Source: Pseudomonas silvicola (GTDB taxonomy: Bacteria; Pseudomonadota; Gammaproteobacteria; Pseudomonadales; Pseudomonadaceae). From it: a DNA stretch of 64,000 bases. The position numbers and the translations under genes were made by a program. The stretch lies in NCBI RefSeq assembly GCF_026651855.1, contig NZ_CP093280.1, forward strand, positions 350,001 to 414,000. Direction: 5' to 3'. Below the pieces are notes generated by a model. It made no database searches. It was given only the letters and a program-made list of their open reading frames with translations, and was not told the DNA's origin. The first letter of the stretch is position 1; each line of letters begins with the position of its first letter. Shown one piece after another: positions 15,202 to 50,110 of this stretch.

Positions 15202-16377
15202 ATGTCATCCGCTATTTCCACTGACGTGCTGATTGTCGGCGCTGGCGTCGCCGGCCTGTGGCTCAACGCCCGCCTGCGGCGCCTGGGTTATTCGACCGTG
15301 CTGGTGGAAAATGCCAGCCTGGGGGGCGGGCAGAGCCTCAAGTCCCAGGGCATCATCCATGGCGGCGCCAAGTACGCCCTGCACGGTGCCCTGACCGGTG
15401 CCAGCGAGGCCATCGCCGACATGCCGCGGCGCTGGCGTGAAGCGCTGGCCGGCAGCGGCGAGCTGGACCTCAGTGGCGTGCAGGTGTTGTCCCAGGCCCA
15501 CTACCTGTGGTCCCCCGGCACCCTGGCGGGCAACCTCACCAGCTTCTTTGCCAGCAAAGCGGTGCGCGGGCGCGTCGACCAGGTCAAAGGCAGCGACCTG
15601 CCGCCTGCTCTGCAGGACAAGGCATTCAAGGGCAAGGTCTACCGCCTGGCCGAGCTGGTAGTCGACACCCCCAGTGTCATCCAGTGCCTGGCGCAACTGG
15701 GCGGCGATGGCCTGCTGGCCGGCGAAAGCGTAGAGCCCTTGCGGGAGAACGGTGAACTGGCCGGCCTGCGCGTCGACGGCCGCGAGATCCGCGCCCGCCG
15801 GGTGGTATTGAGCGCGGGCGCCGGTACTGCAGCGCTGCTGCAACAGCTGCGCGTGGACCAGCCGGCCATGCAACGCCGGCCGCTGCACATGGTCATCGCC
15901 AAGGGCGCCACGCTCAAGCCGCTGTACGCCCACTGCCTGGGCGGCGGCACCAAGCCACGCATCACGGTCACCACCCACCCGGCCCGCGACGGTCAGTGGG
16001 TGTGGTACCTGGGCGGCGACATTGCCGAGGCCGACGGCGTGGCCCGCACGCCCGAACAGCAGATCGCCACGGCCCGCAATGAGCTGGGGCAATTGCTGCC
16101 CTGGGTAGACCTGAGCCAGGTGCGGTGGGCTACCTTGCGTGTCGACCGGGCAGAACCGGCGCAGTCGGGGCTGGTTCGCCCCGATAACGCGTTCCTCGCC
16201 GAGCAGGGCGCGCTCCTGGTGGGCTGGCCGACCAAACTGGCACTGGCCCCGGATTTCTCCGACCGCGTGATCGCCAGCCTGGACCGCGACGGCATCAAGC
16301 CAGGCCAGCACCCGAGCCTGCCTCCATTGCCACGCCCCCCGCTGGGCCAGGCCCCCTGGGAGCAATTGCTGCCATGA
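15202..16377 (+). CDS. FAD-dependent oxidoreductase (DAO family)
   Basis: A 391-residue flavoprotein of the D-amino-acid oxidase / glycerol-3-phosphate dehydrogenase-like superfamily. The dinucleotide-binding GxGxxG is at residues 13-18 (IVGAGVAGL). A second conserved block GGGQSLKSQGIIHGGAKYALHG follows, and RRVVLSAGAGTAALLQQL closes the FAD domain. The substrate is not evident. Its stop overlaps the next gene (ATGA), so the oxidoreductase and the aldo/keto reductase are translationally coupled. The same pair occurs downstream of an SMR gene in other pseudomonads. Confidence 0.88.
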   Translation: MSSAISTDVLIVGAGVAGLWLNARLRRLGYSTVLVENASLGGGQSLKSQGIIHGGAKYALHGALTGASEAIADMPRRWREALAGSGELDLSGVQVLSQAHYLWSPGTLAGNLTSFFASKAVRGRVDQVKGSDLPPALQDKAFKGKVYRLAELVVDTPSVIQCLAQLGGDGLLAGESVEPLRENGELAGLRVDGREIRARRVVLSAGAGTAALLQQLRVDQPAMQRRPLHMVIAKGATLKPLYAHCLGGGTKPRITVTTHPARDGQWVWYLGGDIAEADGVARTPEQQIATARNELGQLLPWVDLSQVRWATLRVDRAEPAQSGLVRPDNAFLAEQGALLVGWPTKLALAPDFSDRVIASLDRDGIKPGQHPSLPPLPRPPLGQAPWEQLLP

Positions 16378-17186
16378 CCCTCGCCACCCTGCACGACCTG
16401 CATCGCCCACTGGGCAGCACCGGCCTGAGCGTTTCGCCACTGGGCCTGGGCACCGTCAAGCTGGGCCGCGACCAAGGGGTGAAGTACCCGAACGGCTTCA
16501 CCATCCCCGATGATGAGCAAGCCCGCCAGCTGCTGGGCCAGGCCCGTCAGCTGGGCATCAACCTGATCGACACGGCGCCCGCCTACGGCACTAGCGAAAC
16601 ACGCCTGGGCCCGCTGCTGCGCGGCCAGCGCCACGACTGGGTGATCGTCAGCAAGGTGGGCGAGGAGTTCGAAGCCGGCCAATCGCACTTTGACTTCAGT
16701 GCCACGCACACGCGCTTTTCCGTGGAGCGCAGCCTCCAGCGCCTGGAGACCGACTTCATCGACCTGGTGCTGGTGCATTCAGACGGCAACGACCTGCACA
16801 TCCTCGAACACACGGGGGTATACGAGGCGTTGGTACGTTTGAAGGAGCAAGGCAAGATCCGTGGCTTCGGTTTTTCTGGCAAGACCGTGGCGGGCGGCCT
16901 GAAGGCGCTGGAAAGCGGCGACTGCGCCATGGTCACCTACAATCTCAACGAACAGGGCGAACGCCCGGTGCTGGACTACGCTGCCACGCACGGCAAGGGC
17001 ATTCTGGTGAAGAAGGCGCTGGCCAGCGGCCACGCGTGCCTGAGCCCGGGCACCGACCCGGTGCGGGCCAGTTTTGAGCTGCTGTTTGCCCACCCAGGGG
17101 TGGCCAGTGCTATTGTCGGTACCATCAACCCGTTGCACCTGGCCCATAACGTGGCCACCGCAGCCGCTGTCATTCGCGGGAGCTGA
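16374..17186 (+). CDS. Aldo/keto reductase
   Basis: A 270-residue (alpha/beta)8 NADPH-dependent oxidoreductase. The catalytic tetrad is visible: D66 and Y71 (DTAPAYG), K94 (VSKVGEE) and H135 (LVHSDG). The C-terminal cofactor part, ending in VASAIVGTINPLHLAHN, is also typical. It overlaps the upstream FAD oxidoreductase by four bases. Family members reduce carbonyls or act on sugars; the substrate cannot be read from the sequence. Confidence 0.9.
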   Translation: MTLATLHDLHRPLGSTGLSVSPLGLGTVKLGRDQGVKYPNGFTIPDDEQARQLLGQARQLGINLIDTAPAYGTSETRLGPLLRGQRHDWVIVSKVGEEFEAGQSHFDFSATHTRFSVERSLQRLETDFIDLVLVHSDGNDLHILEHTGVYEALVRLKEQGKIRGFGFSGKTVAGGLKALESGDCAMVTYNLNEQGERPVLDYAATHGKGILVKKALASGHACLSPGTDPVRASFELLFAHPGVASAIVGTINPLHLAHNVATAAAVIRGS

Positions 17187-17236
17187 AACACACGGAGCCG
17201 CCCACGCGGCCGACCCCGACGCAAGAAGGAGCCGAC

Positions 17237-18202
17237 ATGCCGCGTACCCTGATAAGAAAGAACCCCAGCAACTTCAAGACCCTGCCACTGTTCGTCGAAG
17301 CCACGCCCGAAGGCTTGAGTTACCAGAGCGTCGGCATGCCGCTGAACTTCGCCCAAACCTTGCAACGCCGTCGCCAGGTGAGCGTGGACGACCCCCAGCG
17401 TTTCGCCCTGGAACTGGCAAACCTGGGGGTTTCGGTGCGCCTGACCCTGACCTGGCAAAACCGCGACTATTGGGTTCTGGTACGCCAGCGCCGCCAGGAC
17501 CGGGGCGACGTGGTGCTCAAGCTGATCTCCGGCTACGTGCCGGCCCACGAAATGAACCTGCCACTGCTGACTGCCATTCAGGAAGTGGCCGAGGAGTGCC
17601 TGCTGGAAACCCCTGAAGGCTGGCTGATTGGCCGCTTCAATGACACCTGGTTGCCCACGCCCTACAGCGGCGCGCTGCACTATCGGGAAAAATTGCCGTT
17701 CAGGTTGCGCCCGCTGTCCGGCGCGGCGCTGCCGGTGCGCACTGGCAGCCTGAACCTGATTGAACGCCCGCGCGCCTATGTGCACCTGCCCACGGCGTCG
17801 CTGCAACTGGTGTATGACCTGCGCCTGGAATTGCCCAAGGAAGCCCGTAACCTCAGCCTTTTCCATGTGGACGAGCGCCTGGAGAAAGAGCAACTGGTCG
17901 CCCGCCTGGACCGCAGCAGGCCGGACCTGTACCTGATGCCGCTGGACGAAGGCAAGCCCTGCGCCGAGCTTTACACCCTGAAAAAAGGCCAGCTGCACCC
18001 GGCCAGCACCCGCGGTCTCTGCCTGGCAGAGAGCTTCGCACCGCAGGAGGGCTGGGTGGTGCGTGAAGAAAGGATTCGCTGGAAGGACTGGCTGAACCAG
18101 CAGGGCCTGGCCGAAGTGCGCAAACCCCGCACCGGCCTGCGCAAACTCACCCACAAGGCCCGGGCACTGCTGCGCCTGGCCCGGGGCAATCTGCACAAAT
18201 AG
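17237..18202 (+). CDS. Conserved protein of unknown function with a Nudix-like segment
   Basis: A 321-residue soluble protein, conserved in Pseudomonas next to the aldo/keto reductase. It is sometimes labelled 'metal ABC transporter ATPase', which I cannot support: no Walker A, signature or Walker B motif is present. A segment near residues 110-125 (LLTAIQEVAEECLLETPEG) resembles the helix of a Nudix box, with EVAEE in place of REVxEE and flanking strands (WVLVRQRR, GDVVLKLISGYVP), so it may be a diverged Nudix-fold protein. The C-terminus is very basic. A ribosome-binding site AAGGAG lies upstream of the ATG. Confidence 0.8.
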   Translation: MPRTLIRKNPSNFKTLPLFVEATPEGLSYQSVGMPLNFAQTLQRRRQVSVDDPQRFALELANLGVSVRLTLTWQNRDYWVLVRQRRQDRGDVVLKLISGYVPAHEMNLPLLTAIQEVAEECLLETPEGWLIGRFNDTWLPTPYSGALHYREKLPFRLRPLSGAALPVRTGSLNLIERPRAYVHLPTASLQLVYDLRLELPKEARNLSLFHVDERLEKEQLVARLDRSRPDLYLMPLDEGKPCAELYTLKKGQLHPASTRGLCLAESFAPQEGWVVREERIRWKDWLNQQGLAEVRKPRTGLRKLTHKARALLRLARGNLHK

Positions 18203-21278: not shown

Positions 21279-21302
21279 GGGGCGACACAAAGGCCGCCCC
21301 CA
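21279..21302 (-). terminator. Intrinsic terminator downstream of msbA
   Basis: On the minus strand a 7-bp GC stem (GGGGGCG / CGCCCCC; 21279-21285 with 21296-21302) is followed by TTTACGTT, 28 bases after the msbA stop. The 10-base word CAACGTAAAG occurs on both sides of the hairpin (about 21269-21278 and 21302-21311). It implies that the sulfotransferase-cysC-hldE genes need their own promoter or read-through. Confidence 0.65.
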
Positions 21303-21329
21303 ACGTAAAGACCTGACTACATGTGGCCG

Positions 21330-23918
21330 TCAGGTGATGTCGGCCGCCACCGGCTCATCCAGCCCCATGGCATGCAGCTTGGCATAGAAGCCGTTGCGCG
21401 CCAGCAACTGGTCGTGGGTGCCGCGCTCGACGATCTGGCCCTGGTCCATCACCAGAATAAGGTCGGCCTTCTCGATGGTCGACAGGCGGTGGGCGATAAC
21501 CAGGGTGGTACGGCCTTTCATGACCTGGTCCAATGCCGCCTGGATATGCCGCTCCGACTCAGTGTCCAGCGCCGAGGTGGCCTCGTCCAGAATCAGCAAG
21601 GGGGCGTTCTTGAGCAGCGCACGGGCAATGGCCAGGCGCTGGCGCTGGCCACCGGACAGCAGCACGCCGTTCTCGCCTACCTGGGTATCGAAACCATTGG
21701 GCAACTGCTGGACGAAGTCCATGGCATACGCATCGGCCGCGGCCTTCTCGATATCGGCCCGCGGCGCTCCAGCCAGGTCGCCGTAGGCGATGTTGTTGGC
21801 CACGGTGTCGCTGAACAGCGTCACGTGCTGGGTCACCTGGGCGATATGGCGGCGCAGGTTGATCAGTTTGAAGTCCTCGACCTCGACGCCATCGATCAGA
21901 ATCTCGCCATCAGTATGGTGGTAGAAGCGCGGGATCAGGCTGGCCAGGGTCGACTTGCCACTGCCCGAACGGCCCACCAGCGCCACCATCTGCCCCGGCT
22001 CGACGGTGAAACTGATGTTGTCCAGCACACGCCGCTCGGTGTCGGGATAGGTGAAGCTCAGGTTGCGCACTTCCAGGCGGCCACTGACGCGCTCGCGCTC
22101 GACGGTGCCGGTGTCCACTTCCGGCTCTTCATCCAACTGCTCGAAGATACTCTCGGCACCGGCGACACCTTTCTGGATGGTGGAACTGACTTCCGACAGC
22201 TGACGGATCGGCTTGGGCAACAGGCCGGCCAGGGTGATGTAGGCGATCATGTCACCGGGCGAAGCATCACCGCGCAGCAGCAGCACCAGGAACATCAGCA
22301 CGGCCATGGCGGTGTAGATCACCAGCTGCAGCATGGGCGTGTAGATGGAGCCGGTGCGGGTCATGCGCAGTTGCTTGTCGGTGTTGCTCTGGCTGGCCTT
22401 GAAGAACCGCTCGCGCTCGAACGTCTCGCCGCCGAAGCTGCGCACCACGCGGTAGCCCTGAATGGTTTCGGAAGCAACATGGGTCACATCGCCCATGGCT
22501 ACCTGGATTTTCTTGCTCTGCTTGCGGAATTTGCTGCTGGCGGTACGCACCATGACGGCGATCAGCGGCAGGATGGCGACCATCACCAGGGTAAGGCGCC
22601 AGTTCATCAGCAACAGCGAGCCGAACAGGAACACCACGGTCATGCCTTCGCGGATCACCACCTTGATGGCGTCGGTGGCCGCGCCCGTGACCATGGTCAC
22701 GTTGAAGGTGATGCGCGAGATCAGGCTGGCCAGGGTCGACTTGCCACTGCCCGAACGGCCCACCAGCGCCACCATCTGCCCCGGCTCGACGGTGAAACTG
22801 ATGTTGTCCAGCACACGCCGCTCGGTGTCGGGATAGGTGAAGCTCAGGTTGCGCACTTCCAGGCGGCCACTGACGCGCTCGCGCTCGACGGTGCCGGTGT
22901 CCACTTCCGGCTCTTCATCCAACTGCTCGAAGATACTCTCGGCACCGGCGACACCTTTCTGGATGGTGGAACTGACTTCCGACAGCTGACGGATCGGCTT
23001 GGGCAACAGGCCGGCCAGGGTGATGTAGGCGATCATGTCACCGGGCGAAGCATCACCGCGCAGCAGCAGCACCAGAAACATCAGCACGGCCATGGCGGTG
23101 TAGATCACCAGCTGCAGCATGGGCGTGTAGATGGAGCCGGTGCGGGTCATGCGCAGTTGCTTGTCGGTGTTGCTCTGGCTGGCCTTGAAGAACCGCTCGC
23201 GCTCGAACGTCTCGCCGCCGAAGCTGCGCACCACGCGGTAGCCCTGAATGGTTTCGGAAGCAACATGGGTCACATCGCCCATGGCCACCTGGATTTTCTT
23301 GCTCTGCTTGCGGAATTTGCTGCTGGCGGTACGCACCATGACGGCGATCAGCGGCAGGATGGCGACCATCACCAGGGTAAGGCGCCAGTTCATCAGCAAC
23401 AGCGAGCCGAACAGGAACACCACGGTCATGCCTTCGCGGATCACCACCTTGATGGCGTCGGTGGCCGCGCCCGTGACCATGGTCACGTTGAAGGTGATGC
23501 GCGAGATCAGGCGCCCGGAATTGTTCTGGTCGAAATAGCGGTTGGGCAGGGTGAGCAGGTTGTTGAACAACTGAAGGCGCAGGTCTTGCACCAGGCCCAG
23601 GGAAACCTTGGCCAGGAAGTAGTTGCCCAGGTACGACCCCAGCCCCTGCCAGGCCGCGATCAGAATGATCAGCAGCGGCACCGCCTGCAGCAGCCGCAGG
23701 TCGCGCAGGTAAGGCACGGTGGGGAACAGCGAGGCATTGGGGTTGGTCAGGCCGTCGACGAAATACTTGAGGATGTAGCCCAGCATCGGCTGCGTGGAGG
23801 CAAAGATGAGGAAGCCTACGATGCTCAAGGCAAAAATGCCCACGTACGGCCGCATGTAGGACAGCAGGCGGAAGTAGACCTTGAGGCTGGACGGTTCGGC
23901 TTTTTCTGAATGACTCAT
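21330..23918 (-). CDS. msbA: Lipid A export ATP-binding/permease protein MsbA carrying an in-frame internal duplication
   Basis: MsbA flips lipid A-core across the inner membrane. Here the open frame is 862 residues instead of about 600, because residues about 139-400 and 401-662 are the same 262-residue block twice. The order is TM1-TM2, then [TM3-TM6, linker, start of the ATPase domain to Walker A GRSGSGKST], the same block again, and finally the rest of one ATPase domain: LSGGQRQRLA near 753, Walker B LLILDEATSALD near 773, and IAHRLST near 810. Only the last ATPase domain is complete. Removing one copy leaves an ordinary 600-residue MsbA. I chose the ATG at 23918 (MSHSEKAEPSSLKVYF); a TTG lies 18 bases upstream. 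Whether the long form works, or the array collapses at some frequency, is unknown. Confidence 0.93.
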   Translation of the reverse strand: MSHSEKAEPSSLKVYFRLLSYMRPYVGIFALSIVGFLIFASTQPMLGYILKYFVDGLTNPNASLFPTVPYLRDLRLLQAVPLLIILIAAWQGLGSYLGNYFLAKVSLGLVQDLRLQLFNNLLTLPNRYFDQNNSGRLISRITFNVTMVTGAATDAIKVVIREGMTVVFLFGSLLLMNWRLTLVMVAILPLIAVMVRTASSKFRKQSKKIQVAMGDVTHVASETIQGYRVVRSFGGETFERERFFKASQSNTDKQLRMTRTGSIYTPMLQLVIYTAMAVLMFLVLLLRGDASPGDMIAYITLAGLLPKPIRQLSEVSSTIQKGVAGAESIFEQLDEEPEVDTGTVERERVSGRLEVRNLSFTYPDTERRVLDNISFTVEPGQMVALVGRSGSGKSTLASLISRITFNVTMVTGAATDAIKVVIREGMTVVFLFGSLLLMNWRLTLVMVAILPLIAVMVRTASSKFRKQSKKIQVAMGDVTHVASETIQGYRVVRSFGGETFERERFFKASQSNTDKQLRMTRTGSIYTPMLQLVIYTAMAVLMFLVLLLRGDASPGDMIAYITLAGLLPKPIRQLSEVSSTIQKGVAGAESIFEQLDEEPEVDTGTVERERVSGRLEVRNLSFTYPDTERRVLDNISFTVEPGQMVALVGRSGSGKSTLASLIPRFYHHTDGEILIDGVEVEDFKLINLRRHIAQVTQHVTLFSDTVANNIAYGDLAGAPRADIEKAAADAYAMDFVQQLPNGFDTQVGENGVLLSGGQRQRLAIARALLKNAPLLILDEATSALDTESERHIQAALDQVMKGRTTLVIAHRLSTIEKADLILVMDQGQIVERGTHDQLLARNGFYAKLHAMGLDEPVAADIT
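21933..22718. repeat. 786-bp tandem duplication in msbA, copy nearer the 3' end of the gene
   Basis: This is the second (C-terminal side) copy of the block. The 8-base word GATCAGGC occurs at 21933, 22719 and 23505, exactly 786 bp apart, marking the duplication junctions. The surrounding original contexts differ (GGGATCAGGCTGG against GAGATCAGGCGCC), so the event probably arose by short-homology recombination. I found two differences from the other copy, both third-position silent changes: GTA/GTG in QVAMGDV and TTC/TTT in LMFLV. Confidence 0.95.
22719..23504. repeat. 786-bp tandem duplication in msbA, copy nearer the 5' end of the gene
   Basis: This is the first (N-terminal side) copy of the block described at 21933-22718. 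The unit is a multiple of three, so the reading frame is kept across both junctions and no stop codon is created. Confidence 0.95.
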
Positions 23919-24024
23919 AAAAATCTGCACGTACAAGAGAACGGAAATACTACCACAGGGGCGGCCGGTTAAGCGTATGGGGGCCAGCTAGGGTATGATA
24001 GCCGGCTATTTTCAGGGGGCCGGC

Positions 24025-38138: not shown

Positions 38139-40952
38139 ATGAAAAAAACAATTCAACGCCGTCGCCGCACTGCATTGATGATCCTTGCTTACTCCATGGC
38201 GGTGAGCTCCGGGTACAGTACCGCCGGTACGTTAGCCGGCCCCGCCAGCGCTACCGTCAACCCCGGCGATGCCCCCGATTTCTGGACCTTGACCAATGCC
38301 GCGAGCCTGGTCGTCAACCCAGGCGGGCAGACCCTGCAGATCAGCGCCAACGCTTCGACGGTGAGCCTCGATGGCGCCACCGTAACCGCGGCACCAGGAG
38401 CCGCGGCCGCCCTGGTGGCTACAGGCGCCGGCGCCACGGCAGCGGTCGCCAATAGCACCCTCACCAGCACCACCAGCGTTGGGGTCACCGTAGGTACGCA
38501 AGCCACCGGTACCCTGATCGACAGCACCGTCAATGCCAGCAGCCGCGGCCTGAACCTTAACTTCGGTGGGCAGGTGACCGTGATCAACAGCCAGGTCAAC
38601 GCCAGCGGCAATAGCACCTCGGCGATCTTCAGCAACGGTGTCGGGGTGGCCCTGGTATCCGGCACGGCCACCTTGAGCCAGGGCAGCAGGGTGGTAGGGG
38701 CGACCAACGGCGCCGTGTTCACGGCAGACGTCCCCAGTACCGGCACGCCTGGCTTGCTGGGCACCTTGATCGTCGACAACTCGACGCTGCAAGGCACCAG
38801 CGGCAGCGGGCTGCTGCTGGTGCAAACACGAGCTAACCGCATTCCCGTCGCCGATATCACCCTACGCAATGGCGCTGAGGTGATCGGTGGCAACGGCATA
38901 GCCCTGGAAACCTCGGCCAACTCCAGCGCGACGCTGAATGCCGATGCCAGTACCTTGACCGGGGGTATCACCAACGCCACAGGGGCCACGGTGAATGCGA
39001 CACTGGCCAACGGCAGCGCCATGACCGGCGCCCTGAATGCCGCAGCTTCGTCCACCACCACCCTGGCCCTGGACCATAGCACCCTGACCGGTGATACCAA
39101 CGCCACCGGCGCCACGGTCAGCACCACCGCGCAGAACGGCAGCAGCATCATCGGCGCGGTCAATGCCGACGCCGATACGACCGCCAGCCTGCTGCTGGAC
39201 AGCAGCACCATGATCGGCGCCATCACCGCCACCGGCGCCACCGTCACCACGACGCTGCAAGACGCCAGCAGCCTCGTGGGCTCGGTGAATGCCACCGACA
39301 GTGCGACCGCCACGCTTCTGCTGGACAACAGCAGCATGACGGGCGACATCAACGCCAGCGGGGCGACCATCAACACAACGCTGCGTGACGGTAGCCAACT
39401 GAACGGCTCACTGAATGCTTCCAGCGGCGCTACAACCAGCCTGCTGCTGGACAACAGCACCATGACCGGCAACGTCACGGCCACCGGCGCCACGGCCGAT
39501 GTCACCCTGCAAAACGCGTCAACCCTGACAGGCCAACTGACTGATGTCAGCGAATTGAGCCTGGCCGGCAACTCGGTCTGGAACCTGACCCAGAGCGCCA
39601 ACCTCAACAGCCTGACCATCGACAACAGCCGGGTGAACCTGAACGGGCAGGTAGGCGCGTTCAACACCCTGACGCTGGGCAGCCTGTCCGGCTCCGGTAC
39701 CTTTGCACTCAATACCGATATTGCCCAGTTGCAGGGCGACAAGCTGGTGATCACCGGCGAAGCGAGCGGCAGCCACACCTTGGCGGTCGCCAACACCGGT
39801 GCCGAACCGAAGGCCGGCGACTCGGGCCTGGTGCTGGTCAACAGCCCCACCGGTTCTGCTCAATTCGCCGTGCTGGGTGGTCAGGTCGACGCGGGCACCT
39901 ACACCTACGACCTGGCCCATGAAGGTGCGAACTGGGTGTTGGTGCAACGCACCACCGGGGGAGAAAACGGTGGTGGCGAGGAAGGTGGCGGTGGCGAGGA
40001 AGGTGGCGGTGGCGAGGAAGGCGGTGGAACCCCCATCGTCAGCCCCAGCGCACGGGCGGTGCTGGGGCTGTTCAACGCCGCGCCAACCGTGTGGTACGGC
40101 GAAACCACGACGCTGCGCAGCCGCATGGGCGAACTGCGGCTGGGCAATGGCACCAGCGGCCCGTGGGTGCGCGCCTACAGCAACAAATATGACCTTTCCG
40201 CAGGCGGTGGGGTGGCCTACCAGCAGCAACAGAATGGCGTCAGCTTCGGGATAGACACCCCCTTGCCGGCCGCCGACGGTCGTTGGCTGGTAGGCGTGGT
40301 GGCCGGCTATAGCCACTCCAGCCTGGACCTGGCCGCCGGCCCCGACAGCAGCGTGAACAGCTACTACATGGGGCTGTACAGCACGTGGCTGAGCGACAGC
40401 GGTTATTACGTAGATGCCCTGGTGAAGGCCAACCGTTTTGAAAACCGCGCCAACGTCGTGATGAGCGACGGCGTGCACGCCAATGGCAACTACACCAGCC
40501 ACGGGGTGGGGGGGTCAGTGGAGGTAGGCAAGCACATAAGCCTGCCCGCCAAGTGGTTCATCGAACCCTACGCTCAGTTTTCGGCCCTGTGGGTACCGGG
40601 CAAGAGCCTGGACCTGGACAACGGCATGGACGCCGACAGCAACCATGCCAACTCATTGCTGGGCAAGGTGGGCACCCACGTGGGCCGCACGTTCAACCTG
40701 GACGGCGGCGGCACCCTGCAGCCTTACTTCAAAGTGGCGGCCGCTCAGGAATTCGCCAGGACCAACCGCGTCACCATCAACAATACCAATGCGTTCAATA
40801 ATGATCTTTCCGGGGGAAGAGTGGAACTGGGTAGCGGCATCATTGCCCAGGTCTCTTCAGCCTTACAAGTTCATGCAGACTTCGACTACAGCGACGGGCG
40901 CAATATCCGAGAGCCCTGGGGCGTTAGTGTAGGCGTTCGATATGCCTGGTAA
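38139..40952 (+). CDS. Autotransporter (type Va), pertactin-like passenger with internal repeats
   Basis: A 937-residue surface protein. It has a basic extended N-terminus and hydrophobic segment (MKKTIQRRRRTALMILAYSM) as signal peptide, then a long Thr/Ser/Ala/Asn/Gly-rich passenger predicted to form a beta-helix. Five tandem units of 42-43 residues follow at residues about 271-481, then a pertactin-like junction (LTIDNSRVNLNGQVGAFNTLTLGSLSG), a GGEEGG hinge, and a C-terminal 12-strand barrel from about 640 ending in ...GVSVGVRYAW. The barrel is closely related to that of the neighbouring gene at 41078. It is likely an adhesin or another contact protein; no protease triad is evident. Confidence 0.9.
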   Translation: MKKTIQRRRRTALMILAYSMAVSSGYSTAGTLAGPASATVNPGDAPDFWTLTNAASLVVNPGGQTLQISANASTVSLDGATVTAAPGAAAALVATGAGATAAVANSTLTSTTSVGVTVGTQATGTLIDSTVNASSRGLNLNFGGQVTVINSQVNASGNSTSAIFSNGVGVALVSGTATLSQGSRVVGATNGAVFTADVPSTGTPGLLGTLIVDNSTLQGTSGSGLLLVQTRANRIPVADITLRNGAEVIGGNGIALETSANSSATLNADASTLTGGITNATGATVNATLANGSAMTGALNAAASSTTTLALDHSTLTGDTNATGATVSTTAQNGSSIIGAVNADADTTASLLLDSSTMIGAITATGATVTTTLQDASSLVGSVNATDSATATLLLDNSSMTGDINASGATINTTLRDGSQLNGSLNASSGATTSLLLDNSTMTGNVTATGATADVTLQNASTLTGQLTDVSELSLAGNSVWNLTQSANLNSLTIDNSRVNLNGQVGAFNTLTLGSLSGSGTFALNTDIAQLQGDKLVITGEASGSHTLAVANTGAEPKAGDSGLVLVNSPTGSAQFAVLGGQVDAGTYTYDLAHEGANWVLVQRTTGGENGGGEEGGGGEEGGGGEEGGGTPIVSPSARAVLGLFNAAPTVWYGETTTLRSRMGELRLGNGTSGPWVRAYSNKYDLSAGGGVAYQQQQNGVSFGIDTPLPAADGRWLVGVVAGYSHSSLDLAAGPDSSVNSYYMGLYSTWLSDSGYYVDALVKANRFENRANVVMSDGVHANGNYTSHGVGGSVEVGKHISLPAKWFIEPYAQFSALWVPGKSLDLDNGMDADSNHANSLLGKVGTHVGRTFNLDGGGTLQPYFKVAAAQEFARTNRVTINNTNAFNNDLSGGRVELGSGIIAQVSSALQVHADFDYSDGRNIREPWGVSVGVRYAW
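38949..39581 (+). repeat. Tandem 126-bp repeats in autotransporter passenger
   Basis: The serine codon of the recurring S-T/S-M/L-T-G motif falls at 38949, 39078, 39204, 39330 and 39456, giving one 129-bp spacing and three of 126 bp. Each unit encodes a strand-turn pattern of the type LLLDNSTMTG..ATGATV.TTL..GS. Copies have diverged at many positions, so the array is old rather than freshly amplified. Confidence 0.85.
39972..40025 (+). repeat. Three 18-bp units encoding a GGEEGG hinge
   Basis: Three consecutive 18-bp units (GGTGGCGAGGAAGGTGGC and two near-identical copies) encode Gly-Gly-Glu-Glu-Gly-Gly between passenger and barrel. Slippage would change hinge length without changing frame. 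The paralogue at 41078 lacks this hinge. Confidence 0.9.
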
Positions 40953-47041: not shown

Positions 47042-50000
47042 ATGAAAGAACAGGGCCCTATCGAACAACTTGAAGCACTGGACGCCGCCGTCCAGGCGGC
47101 GAATGTGGCGCCTCCTTCCGTAAGCGCCATTCTTGCCAGACGCCTGCATGACCTGATTCCCCAGCTTCCTGCCGAACTGCCCGCTGCGGCAGTGATGATC
47201 GGCGGCCAATCGCTGGTACAGCGCCTCGAACAGCGCCTCACCAGCGGCAAGGCGCTTGCGCTGGCCGGTGACGCGGCGCTCGGGTATTGGCATGAGCAGC
47301 GCCACCACGGGATAGAACAACGGCACCTGCCAGGCCTTGAGCGGCTGATCGAGCAACTCGGGGCAAGGCCGATGGCCTGGTTCGGTGACTACCTCAGGCG
47401 CCACTGGCGCTTGCAGCGTATCGATGGGCAGCCCATGAGTCAGTGGTTTCGCGCCCGCATGGTCGAGCGGCTGCAGGCGCAGCAGCGCTTGCGCGAGCAG
47501 GATGGAACCCTGGGGGCCGCCCACTCGGCGATGCTTGAACAATTGATCAGCACCCCCGATGCCCTCAGCCGTCTGGTGCTACCGGCCTTCCGCCGGCCGG
47601 GCGTCTACGCTGTGCGCCTGTCGGCCCCCGCGCAGCGCTGGAGCATCGAGCTGCCCGGCGCCTTTGTGGTCACCCAGCGTGATGCCCGAGGTTTCCACGA
47701 TACCGCGGGGGCATTCACTGTGCCGCCGCCGGGCAACCTGGACAGCGCATCGCCTGAGGCGGATGCCGGCCCGGTAACGCTCAATACCCCGGCATTCGGC
47801 ATCGAGTGCTTTACTTCATTGGCCGAGCTGCACGAGGAACTGAGCGCCCGTTTCGATGATGAGCGCCAGGCCGAGGCCTTGCTGGCAGTGCTTGGCCATG
47901 ATGATCGGCAACGCGTGCTGCAGGCCGAACATCTGGAACTGCCCGCCCTGCACGAAGATGTCTTCAGCCGCTCGGCCGGTCAGTTGAATCAATGGCAGTA
48001 CCGCCAGTTGGAAAAACTGCCCCCCTCCAGCACCCACGGCCCCTCCCTGGAAGCCCTCGACAAGTCCCTGTTGGACGCCGTGGATGTAACCCAGGTGTTC
48101 AACCGCCAGGCCATCCTGCGCAACCGCTACAGCGCCTTGCTGGAGAAACACCTCCCGGGGTGGATGAAAAAAGCCTCCGCCCAGCAGAAAATCGAGATCA
48201 TGCAATCCTTGCAGGAGCTGGCCTCGGAACTGGCCCTGTCCTTGAGCCCCGGCATGCCGAGCATGCAGCAGTTCGGTGAGCGCACGTACATGCTCAACTA
48301 CGCCCGCCAACAGTTGCGCCAGCGCTTGCGCGCCGACCTGGACCTGGACATCGACCCCGACCTGATCACCCTCAGCGTCACACGGGCTGAACAGACAGGG
48401 CCGATCCCGCCACCGACCAACCCGCTCAGTTCCATTCCCGGGCGCTCGCGCGAACAGGCGGGCCACCCCGTGACACTGAGCACCCAGCGGTACAAGCTCA
48501 GCGAACTGGCCCTGGAGAACGTTGCCCTGATCGACACCGACTACACCTTGACCGCTCGGGTACAAGGCCCGCCGGGCCTGCCCTTGCCTGGGCTGACGAC
48601 GCAATACGTGCGCAGCGCCATTCGCCACCTCAATGTCGGCGACCGGTATAGCCGCTTCGTCGAAAAACGGTTGCTGCAAGGCCCCGATGCGCAATGGCGC
48701 CAAGAGCGCTACCGGCGTATCACGCTGGCACGGATGCGCGCCGAAGCCATCAAGGCCCGGTACGCCGGTCACTTTCTGGCCGATCGCGTTGAACGCGGCT
48801 ATCGATGGGCCGCCGCCCTGCTCGACCACCCCAACCGCGATGCAGGCCGCAAAACCGTGGAGGGCCACACGCTGGAAATCCACCAGTTGCTGATCAATGG
48901 GGCCACGGTACGCGGGGTATGCGTGATTGCCTCAACGTCGCCGCAAAGCCTGCCCAACCAGGTGTATTACACCCCGGACGCGCCAGACCGGCGGGCGTGG
49001 CGCGAATACCGTGACGGGCACGGGTGGCTGGCGGCGATCAGGGCCAACACCGCGCTGCGCGACTATATCGTGGGCAGGGTAGCGCTCACTGATCGCCAGC
49101 GGGTGCTGTCGCACCTGAACGGCGACGGTGCGGCACGGTACTTCACGACTCACATCATCACTGGCGACTTCATCGATCAGTGCTACCACGCCGATGTCAG
49201 GCAAGTGCTCAGCGACATCGACGGGCAATCGACCTCGACCGCCGAGATGAACCTGGGCAATTTCTGGCAATTCACGGTCCTCATGGCCGAAGTTGCCTCA
49301 CTGGCGCTGCCCGGCAAGGTGCTGCTGCCCCTCGCGCTGGCGCGGGCCTTCTGGTCGCTATGGGAAGGCGTGGACGGCATTGCCCAAGGGCAACGCGACG
49401 AGGGCCTGAGGCTGATGATGGAGAGCATCAGCCACTTGACCGACGCCGCGTCCATCGCCTTGGGCTCCACCTACCTGGCGCGCACCATGCGCAAGCTGCC
49501 CCTCAAGCGCCCCATGTCCCTCAACACCAACCTGGCCATCACCCCGGAGCCTGCCAACCTGCGTTTTCGTATCGACAGCCACTACCGTGAAGGCGTGTAT
49601 GAAAAGGTCTCGGACACCGGTGGCCCTTCGGAGTACTACATGAAGGACAAGGACGGCCGCACCTATCAGGTGTTGTTCGATGGCGAAAAATGGCACGTGG
49701 TGGACGCTCGCAACCCCGACGCCATCTTCCATCCCTTGGTGCAGCGCAATGCGCAGGGCGAACTTGAAGTCGTGCGCTCGGTGCACTGGCTCGGCAAGGC
49801 GCCGAACCTGCCAAGGCTGTTCAATGACTATCAGCGCGGCGACGTGCCCTTGCCGCGATTGGTCCTGGACGCCAGGGGGCTGGCCTGGTGGCAGGGGGAT
49901 CGCTACCTGGTCATCGACACCTTCGTGCTGGCGGTGCGCAAAAGCCTGCGCGGCGACCGCTTTACCCTGCTGCCCCCGAGCCCTCCAGCCGGCCAGAGCG

Positions 50001-50110
50001 CGACGGTGTTCCTACGCTACGACGCCGGCTGGGAGATAAAAGTGAAGCAGGCCGGGGTCATCAGCGCGTGGCTGCCGGTGCCTCGTTCCAGCCCGCCGGC
50101 TGACGTCTGA
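47042..50110 (+). CDS. Dermonecrotic toxin domain (DUF6543-like) protein, putative secreted toxin
   Basis: A 1022-residue protein of a family common in Pseudomonas and annotated 'dermonecrotic toxin domain-containing' (DUF6543). Recognisable elements are a helical N-terminal half, the block YVRSAIRHLNVGDRYSRFVEKRL, then ERYRRITLARMRAEAIKARYAG, and the segment VRGVCVIASTSP with VYYTPDAPDRRAWREY. A hydrophobic stretch at about 740-815 (FTVLMAEVASLALPGKVLLPLALARAFW) could insert into membranes. No signal peptide is present. AGGAG precedes the ATG. The family call is from memory and the toxic activity is unproven. Confidence 0.72.
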   Translation: MKEQGPIEQLEALDAAVQAANVAPPSVSAILARRLHDLIPQLPAELPAAAVMIGGQSLVQRLEQRLTSGKALALAGDAALGYWHEQRHHGIEQRHLPGLERLIEQLGARPMAWFGDYLRRHWRLQRIDGQPMSQWFRARMVERLQAQQRLREQDGTLGAAHSAMLEQLISTPDALSRLVLPAFRRPGVYAVRLSAPAQRWSIELPGAFVVTQRDARGFHDTAGAFTVPPPGNLDSASPEADAGPVTLNTPAFGIECFTSLAELHEELSARFDDERQAEALLAVLGHDDRQRVLQAEHLELPALHEDVFSRSAGQLNQWQYRQLEKLPPSSTHGPSLEALDKSLLDAVDVTQVFNRQAILRNRYSALLEKHLPGWMKKASAQQKIEIMQSLQELASELALSLSPGMPSMQQFGERTYMLNYARQQLRQRLRADLDLDIDPDLITLSVTRAEQTGPIPPPTNPLSSIPGRSREQAGHPVTLSTQRYKLSELALENVALIDTDYTLTARVQGPPGLPLPGLTTQYVRSAIRHLNVGDRYSRFVEKRLLQGPDAQWRQERYRRITLARMRAEAIKARYAGHFLADRVERGYRWAAALLDHPNRDAGRKTVEGHTLEIHQLLINGATVRGVCVIASTSPQSLPNQVYYTPDAPDRRAWREYRDGHGWLAAIRANTALRDYIVGRVALTDRQRVLSHLNGDGAARYFTTHIITGDFIDQCYHADVRQVLSDIDGQSTSTAEMNLGNFWQFTVLMAEVASLALPGKVLLPLALARAFWSLWEGVDGIAQGQRDEGLRLMMESISHLTDAASIALGSTYLARTMRKLPLKRPMSLNTNLAITPEPANLRFRIDSHYREGVYEKVSDTGGPSEYYMKDKDGRTYQVLFDGEKWHVVDARNPDAIFHPLVQRNAQGELEVVRSVHWLGKAPNLPRLFNDYQRGDVPLPRLVLDARGLAWWQGDRYLVIDTFVLAVRKSLRGDRFTLLPPSPPAGQSATVFLRYDAGWEIKVKQAGVISAWLPVPRSSPPADV

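Follow-up and report, generated by a model that had tools for sequence, protein, structure and literature searches.

An in-frame tandem duplication within msbA

We analysed a 64,000-nucleotide stretch of the Pseudomonas silvicola genome (assembly GCF_026651855.1, here G000; contig NZ_CP093280.1, G000:C1:350001-414000), referred to below as the window, in which the gene for the lipid A-core flippase MsbA had been predicted from the letters alone to contain an internal tandem duplication. G286 denotes the nearest relative, and L numbers denote sampled loci. The features of the msbA locus, with transmembrane helices abbreviated TM, are:

21330..23918, minus strand: msbA, internally duplicated; open frame of 862 codons plus stop; TIGR02203 match
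22719..23504, minus strand: first 786-bp unit (copy 1); residues ~140-401; covers TM3-TM6 plus the beginning of the ATPase domain, ending shortly after Walker A
21933..22718, minus strand: copy 2 of the 786-bp unit; residues ~402-663; runs on into the sole complete ATPase domain
22734..22760, minus strand: first Walker A; residues 387-395; the ATPase fragment around it lacks Q loop, signature, Walker B and H loop
21948..21974, minus strand: second Walker A; residues 649-657; within the complete ATPase domain
21645..21659, minus strand: LSGGQ signature; residues 754-758; single occurrence
23505..23512, no strand: GATCAGGC at the outer end of copy 1 (original upstream site)
22719..22726, no strand: GATCAGGC at the novel junction between the copies
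21933..21940, no strand: GATCAGGC at the outer end of copy 2 (original downstream site)

The 786-bp in-frame repeat is present as predicted. The word GATCAGGC occurs three times on the plus strand (at 21933, 22719 and 23505), with no other occurrence within 21301-24000. At an offset of 786 the sequence matches itself across 21933-22726, a span of 794 bp with two mismatches; with 792 of 794 bases matching, chance is excluded as the source of the repeat. Both junctions keep the frame, giving a product of 862 residues instead of 600, in which residues 1-139 are followed by copy 1, copy 2 and the remainder of the ATPase domain (664-862).

The product scores 1143 bits against the MsbA family TIGR02203 (cut-off 602), summed over two stretches of the 862 residues, and Pfam finds ABC_membrane and ABC_tran twice each. 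Its best match is the MsbA lipid A-core flippase of PDB 9bd6, from which it does not differ in having the complete ATPase motifs once, and each segment is 98% identical to the 600-residue MsbA of G286. Unlike the usual MsbA, which has one six-helix domain followed by one ATPase domain in ~600 residues, the P. silvicola product has 262 extra residues in which TM3-6 and a truncated ATPase start are repeated. The full set of ATPase motifs (Walker A, Q loop, LSGGQ, Walker B, H loop), searched for with motif strings of our own choice, occurs once, at residues 649-813, and the predicted extra Walker A is indeed there, the motif standing at residues 387 and 649. The doubling of TM3-6 and of the ATPase start was likewise borne out, whereas the count of ten helices that went with it depends on the known topology of MsbA: hydropathy (19-residue window) places helix starts at 24 and 76, then at 158, 180 and 268, then at 420, 442 and 530, and the sixth helix of each bundle falls below the threshold. 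The names TM3-TM6 presumably apply to the repeated unit as they do in the known topology.

msbA is single-copy in related genomes

The comparison with msbA of close relatives that had been proposed as a check found one copy in all 112 loci, G286 included, with the N- and C-terminal parts of the protein overlapping by the same 260 residues each time. These loci (80 in L038-L117, 29 in L009-L037, and L118, L119 and L120) are partly near-duplicates, 96 distinct sequences being present among the 108 cores compared. A search of the genus (298 genomes including G000, limit 1e-180) gave matches in 294 genomes, those without being G010, G079, G209 and G222; G000 matched with 1862.4 bits and every other genome searched with at most 870.6. 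G286 has ~90% DNA identity to G000 over some 18.5 kb around msbA, with the same gene order. As judged from these sequences, the duplication is a derived state.

Two relatives have an msbA frame that is unusual in another way. In G022 (L119:2473-5484, minus strand) and G234 (L120:2512-5517, minus strand) the frame is open for ~400 codons upstream, the extension being an O-antigen ligase domain (Wzy_C, PF04932); with 1004 and 1002 codons, respectively, the two frames appear to be O-antigen ligase-MsbA fusions. Since a methionine is retained where MsbA usually starts, MsbA might also be initiated separately.

A short direct repeat at the ends and the junction

Short direct repeats at the ends of a duplication are a mark of illegitimate exchange. 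At msbA the end homology extends beyond the 8-bp word, to 13 of 14 bp when neighbouring bases are included, and in 200,000 random placements an end overlap of at least 3 bp arose in 6%, of at least 6 bp in 0.26% and of at least 8 bp in 0.03%. The locus thus combines adjacent direct copies, one novel junction, end repeats beyond chance and a one-copy relative, as a short-homology tandem duplication should. In the single-copy msbA of G286 both short repeats are already in place, as GCCTGATCTCGCGC and GCCTGATCCCGCGC. The upstream site codes for His in 111 of the 112 relatives' loci, Arg being found only in G286 and P. silvicola, and the two sites match exactly over 8 bp in only three of the 112 (as GATCAGGC in G286, and as another word in two), so the word at which the exchange would have taken place is a lineage-specific coincidence.

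Differences between the two copies

The copies differ only at two positions, both silent third positions, as had been noted:

22290 / 23076, minus strand: Phe codon, silent; copy 2 (residue 543) has the ancestral TTC, copy 1 (residue 281) the derived TTT
22500 / 23286, minus strand: Val codon, silent; copy 2 (residue 473) has the derived GTA, copy 1 (residue 211) the ancestral GTG

The polarity follows from G286, which has GTG and TTC, and from the 93 relatives' loci with an ungapped N-terminal match, where GTG is found in 74 and TTC in 84; each copy therefore holds one private derived silent change. Against G286, the copies differ at 55 and 54 of the 786 positions, with a residue change in 6 and 5 codons, respectively, and 49 codons silently changed, a pattern that shows ordinary constraint on msbA since the split from G286. 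The two differences between the copies had been read as a sign of long persistence under protein-level constraint. They are too few for that, and say nothing about constraint on msbA after the duplication.

Similar duplications elsewhere in the genome

We surveyed 20-kb stretches across G000 for head-to-tail copies. The sample comprised 1,524,000 bases, window included and ~11 kb counted twice, with 200 kb from contig C2 and 40 kb from contig C3; L241 and L242 repeat earlier stretches and were excluded from the base count. The survey left out multi-copy arrays (L145, 117 bp; L164, 126-252 bp; L244, 126-210 bp; L256, 174 bp), separated repeats (L138, L143, L146 with 337 bp, L147, L151, L152, L158, L163 and part of L164), periods below 300 bp (L191 of the G286 control sample, 244 bp) and L125 (644 bp), which runs into the end of its locus. 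The 300-bp minimum was set after the data had been seen. Eight two-copy head-to-tail duplications of at least 300 bp were found, all on contig C1; the 240 kb taken from C2 and C3 had none:

msbA: 786 bp, overlap 8 bp, 2 differences; inside the gene, in frame
L146, end of a penicillin-amidase family gene: 751 bp, overlap 10 bp, 4 differences
L148 7632-8825, inside an amidase gene: 597 bp, 199 codons in frame, overlap 6 bp, 0 differences
L164 (G000:C1:7310001-7330000) 15586-17653, over an alanine-transaminase gene: 1034 bp, overlap 3 bp, 8 differences
L250, by a solute-binding-protein frame: 951 bp, overlap 13 bp, 24 differences
L251, between mfd-like and SNF2-type helicase genes: 1193 bp, overlap 13 bp, 0 differences
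L256, end of a Dyp-peroxidase gene: 1452 bp, overlap 14 bp, 2 differences
L258 15398-16921, inside an alpha/beta-hydrolase gene: 762 bp, 254 codons in frame, overlap 9 bp, 1 difference

Seven of these lie outside the window, in ~1.46 Mb, with lengths of 597-1452 bp and exact end overlaps of 3-14 bp; the same anatomy at seven other sampled loci means that it is no special property of msbA. Short-overlap duplications of this kind occur about once per 0.2 Mb in the G000 samples, and their copies diverge by 0-2.5%.

Control samples from five relatives, 1,200,000 bases in all (400 kb from G286 and 200 kb each from G098, G170, G263 and G099), contained no two-copy duplication of at least 300 bp. They contained one of 244 bp (L191, in G286), and the G286 sample also held two multi-copy arrays, one of 157 bp (L190) and one of about three copies of 747 bp at 96.6% (L197). 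No adjacent pair was found in a further 1,073,900 bases around msbA in 111 of the relatives' loci, which are conserved regions. With equal rates assumed and the window left out, all seven duplications fall in the P. silvicola sample (p = 0.015; p = 0.0014 when the msbA loci are added to the controls). Given that the size limit was chosen after the fact, this excess of tandem duplications over the controls is suggestive rather than proven.

The three duplications that lie wholly within genes are all multiples of three (msbA, 786; amidase, 597; hydrolase, 762), for which the chance is 1/27; the remaining five extend across gene ends or fall outside clear genes, and two of them are also multiples of three (951 and 1452). 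Real DNA under selection would be expected to show this pattern more than random joins would. The amidase frame has 482 codons in G286 against 682 in G000, and the hydrolase frame 335 against 597; both genes being single in G286, these two duplications are derived too.

Two further repeats came to light in the same samples. Near G000:C1:5455000, a direct repeat of period 644 (L125 1846-3054, 99.8%) runs to the locus end, and at ~2.10-2.11 Mb of C1 (L143/L241) identical direct copies of 2242 bp stand 3400 bp apart, holding a Kdo/WaaP-type kinase gene beside histidine-kinase genes.

Allele-like copies at the transaminase locus

All eight differences at the transaminase locus (L164) are silent; by comparison with G286, the derived state lies in the truncated copy, which lacks the end of the gene, at five sites and in the complete gene at three. 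Five silent changes out of five are unlikely to have arisen in a truncated copy after duplication, unless the fragment is constrained, and the copies therefore resemble two lineages' alleles of a single functional gene, which would have diverged before they were juxtaposed. The same observation further weakens the argument from silent differences to persistence under constraint at msbA, where there are two differences by which to recognise a donor allele. At the acylase (penicillin-amidase family) locus, the complete gene has the derived state at three of the four differences, the fourth is not polarisable, and one of the four alters the protein; the single difference at the hydrolase locus (L258) also alters the protein, and the differences at L250 have no third-position pattern. 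Overall, 13 of the 15 differences that could be placed in genes are silent (leaving aside the 24 at L250 and the two at L256). The allele reading thus rests mainly on the transaminase locus.

Other features of the window

39054..39493: 126-bp tandem repeats, in the gene at 38139..40952 (pertactin and autotransporter domains)
39972..40027: 18-bp tandem repeats, in the same gene
47042..50110: large frame whose product matches Pfam ToxA_N (dermonecrotic toxin N-terminal domain)

Origin of the duplication

On balance, we think it probable that msbA carries a real short-homology tandem duplication, derived, in a genome that may be unusually rich in such duplications, and perhaps formed with sister-strain DNA. 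We propose that the 8-bp word, 13 of 14 bp with its neighbours, came by coincidence to stand twice in msbA, 786 bp apart, in this lineage, and that an illegitimate exchange at the word could then have produced the second copy, either by template switching at the replication fork or by the joining of incoming homologous DNA at a short overlap. Since 786 is a multiple of three, the msbA frame survived; out-of-frame duplications in needed genes would be removed by selection, as is suggested by the intragenic ones all being in frame. Incoming homologous DNA would set a foreign allele beside the resident one, and we favour sister-strain exchange as the source for loci with allele-like differences, at least for the transaminase locus. 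For msbA itself the source may be either template switching or incoming DNA.

Homology-facilitated illegitimate recombination occurs in Acinetobacter and in Pseudomonas stutzeri. The P. silvicola duplications resemble known short-homology (RecA-independent) bacterial tandem duplications in their head-to-tail copies, their junction at a short direct repeat and their one-copy ancestor; they differ in that several occur in one natural genome, at least one of them with allele-like copies, and in that the msbA case is intragenic, in frame and in a gene thought to be essential. In Escherichia coli and Bacillus subtilis constructs, a designed 9-bp overlap determined where a tandem duplication was joined, and the copies were relatively stable, although the authors state in the same account that such overlaps were not needed in their earlier work (PMC11111574). 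Transformation of Streptococcus pneumoniae is described as creating tandem duplications (merodiploids), also over a gene that is essential, and one duplication of 3,276 bp is reported to have lacked flanking repeats (PMC3784515). A natural-transformation route would juxtapose foreign and resident alleles, with short overlaps at one end. The pneumococcal duplications described there are ~100-900 kb long and arise between repeats (PMC3784515), as against 0.6-1.5 kb with 3-14 bp overlaps in P. silvicola. No earlier description of an MsbA duplication was found in the open-access literature searched; PMC11659217 describes a 6-residue duplication in LptD and names msbA only among genes with reported mutations.

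Several observations weigh against this reading. The excess over controls is modest: a 200-bp limit gives seven duplications against one (~0.06, worked by hand), and the 747-bp three-copy array of G286 was left out as multi-copy. Tandem repeats are normally lost quickly, and some 40 per genome, as extrapolated, would be surprising. RecA, MutS, RecB, RecC and RecJ all have near-full-length matches with open frames in G000 (impairing substitutions were not looked for), so loss of one of these five genes is not the cause. Lastly, the assembly is flagged as 8.04% contaminated, and at 8.65 Mb is larger than the other 297 genomes of the genus that were listed (the largest being 7.5 Mb, rounded).

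Within a real duplication, purely internal RecA-independent slippage followed by neutral drift of the copies competes only with the sister-strain source, and is a credible possibility, though not the one we would expect. It accounts for the short direct repeats at the ends, and RecA-independent template switching that deletes DNA between tandem repeats is documented in E. coli in the experiments of PMC8378479. The two loci with zero differences fit recent events, and the hydrolase difference and one acylase difference alter the protein, as drift would. The five derived changes in the truncated transaminase copy, by contrast, are all silent, unlike drift in a dead fragment, and two silent changes in msbA would probably take far longer than the usual life of a 786-bp tandem repeat.

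We consider it rather unlikely, given the evidence below, that the duplications are artefacts in which overlapping ends of contigs or graph edges, or the sequences of two closely related strains sharing a culture, were fused head to tail at short chance overlaps at several loci including msbA. The G000 assembly has 8,650,947 bases in three contigs (7,613,303, 952,764 and 84,880), and the interpretation of msbA given here rests on this assembled sequence. Several loci of the same anatomy in one assembly, together with the contamination and unusual size, are what an artefact would give; allele-like copies would fit two strains, overlaps of ~10 bp could presumably be found by joins with free trimming, and a loss-prone structure is odd in a gene thought to be essential. 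Against this, two loci have zero differences over 603 and 1206 bp, overlaps that an assembler would be expected to merge; the wholly intragenic cases are in frame in three of three; the unit matches without gaps over its whole length, with no net insertion or deletion; the 1.52 Mb sampled contains no N; and near-identical inverted pairs (at least 150 bp, 97%), such as amplification chimeras might give, were found neither in the P. silvicola nor in the control samples. The original prediction had cited the copy differences as an argument against a trivial assembly copy, and the mostly silent differences do count against an artefact, without making one negligible. Among plasmid records, 44 had a match and none covered 80% of the query, the best 20 of the 44 covering 7% each; a tRNA scan of the C2 and C3 samples found none.

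A more far-reaching version of the preferred reading seems to us unlikely as a whole: that P. silvicola has an unusual gain or poor loss of short-overlap duplications, many pairing a resident with an incoming allele, affecting some 40 genes, with in-frame ones kept by selection and a ten-helix MsbA with a Walker A stub as a functional product. Still more doubtful is that the msbA duplication was itself selected, an extended MsbA, or the coexistence of one- and two-copy cells, being advantageous, for example through altered lipid A transport. The duplication is in frame, stands in the assembly consensus and has one derived silent change per copy, and replacements relative to G286 are few in every part of msbA; however, the same anatomy at seven unrelated loci means that nothing singles out msbA, and none of the 112 relatives' loci shares the duplication. 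The related suggestion of a reversible switch found no evidence beyond the general instability of tandem repeats, and a dedicated or regulated switch at msbA is unsupported.

It is highly improbable that a second lipid A flippase makes msbA, which is regarded as essential for growth in Pseudomonas, dispensable and the duplication simply a broken gene: the search for another msbA that had been proposed found none, either by DNA search of G000 (only the locus itself and three matches of 52-88 bases) or among the best protein matches listed, and the closest paralogue among the matches listed, a 600-residue ATP-binding cassette (ABC) transporter at L121 that is 39% identical over 459 positions, scores 486 bits for TIGR02203, below the cut-off of 602, and 895 for the MsbA-related TIGR02204. 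This transporter, in another family that it fits better, was accordingly rejected as a second msbA.

Consequences for MsbA and significance

If the preferred reading of a real duplication holds, the 862-residue MsbA, with one complete ATPase domain, four extra helices and a dead ATPase stub, may be active enough for growth; alternatively, cells that have recombined back to one msbA copy could keep the culture supplied. The extra helices are even in number, so membrane topology would be kept. We envisage a chain of TM1-2, four helices with the stub, and four helices with the complete ATPase domain, which could work as one half-transporter with the insert looped out, an effect on MsbA that we infer from the predicted protein.

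The chief interest lies in the identity of the gene that was hit and in the presence of several such duplications in one genome. Should the assembly be in error, the eight loci warn that a three-contig genome may contain several false in-gene duplications. If the duplication is genuine, then most of the membrane domain can be doubled in frame in a presumably essential gene, and the limits to which an ABC exporter can be extended would become directly testable. A genome with many allele-bearing short tandem duplications would also raise the question of how they form and why they persist, and would show whether sister-strain exchange regularly yields partial gene duplication.

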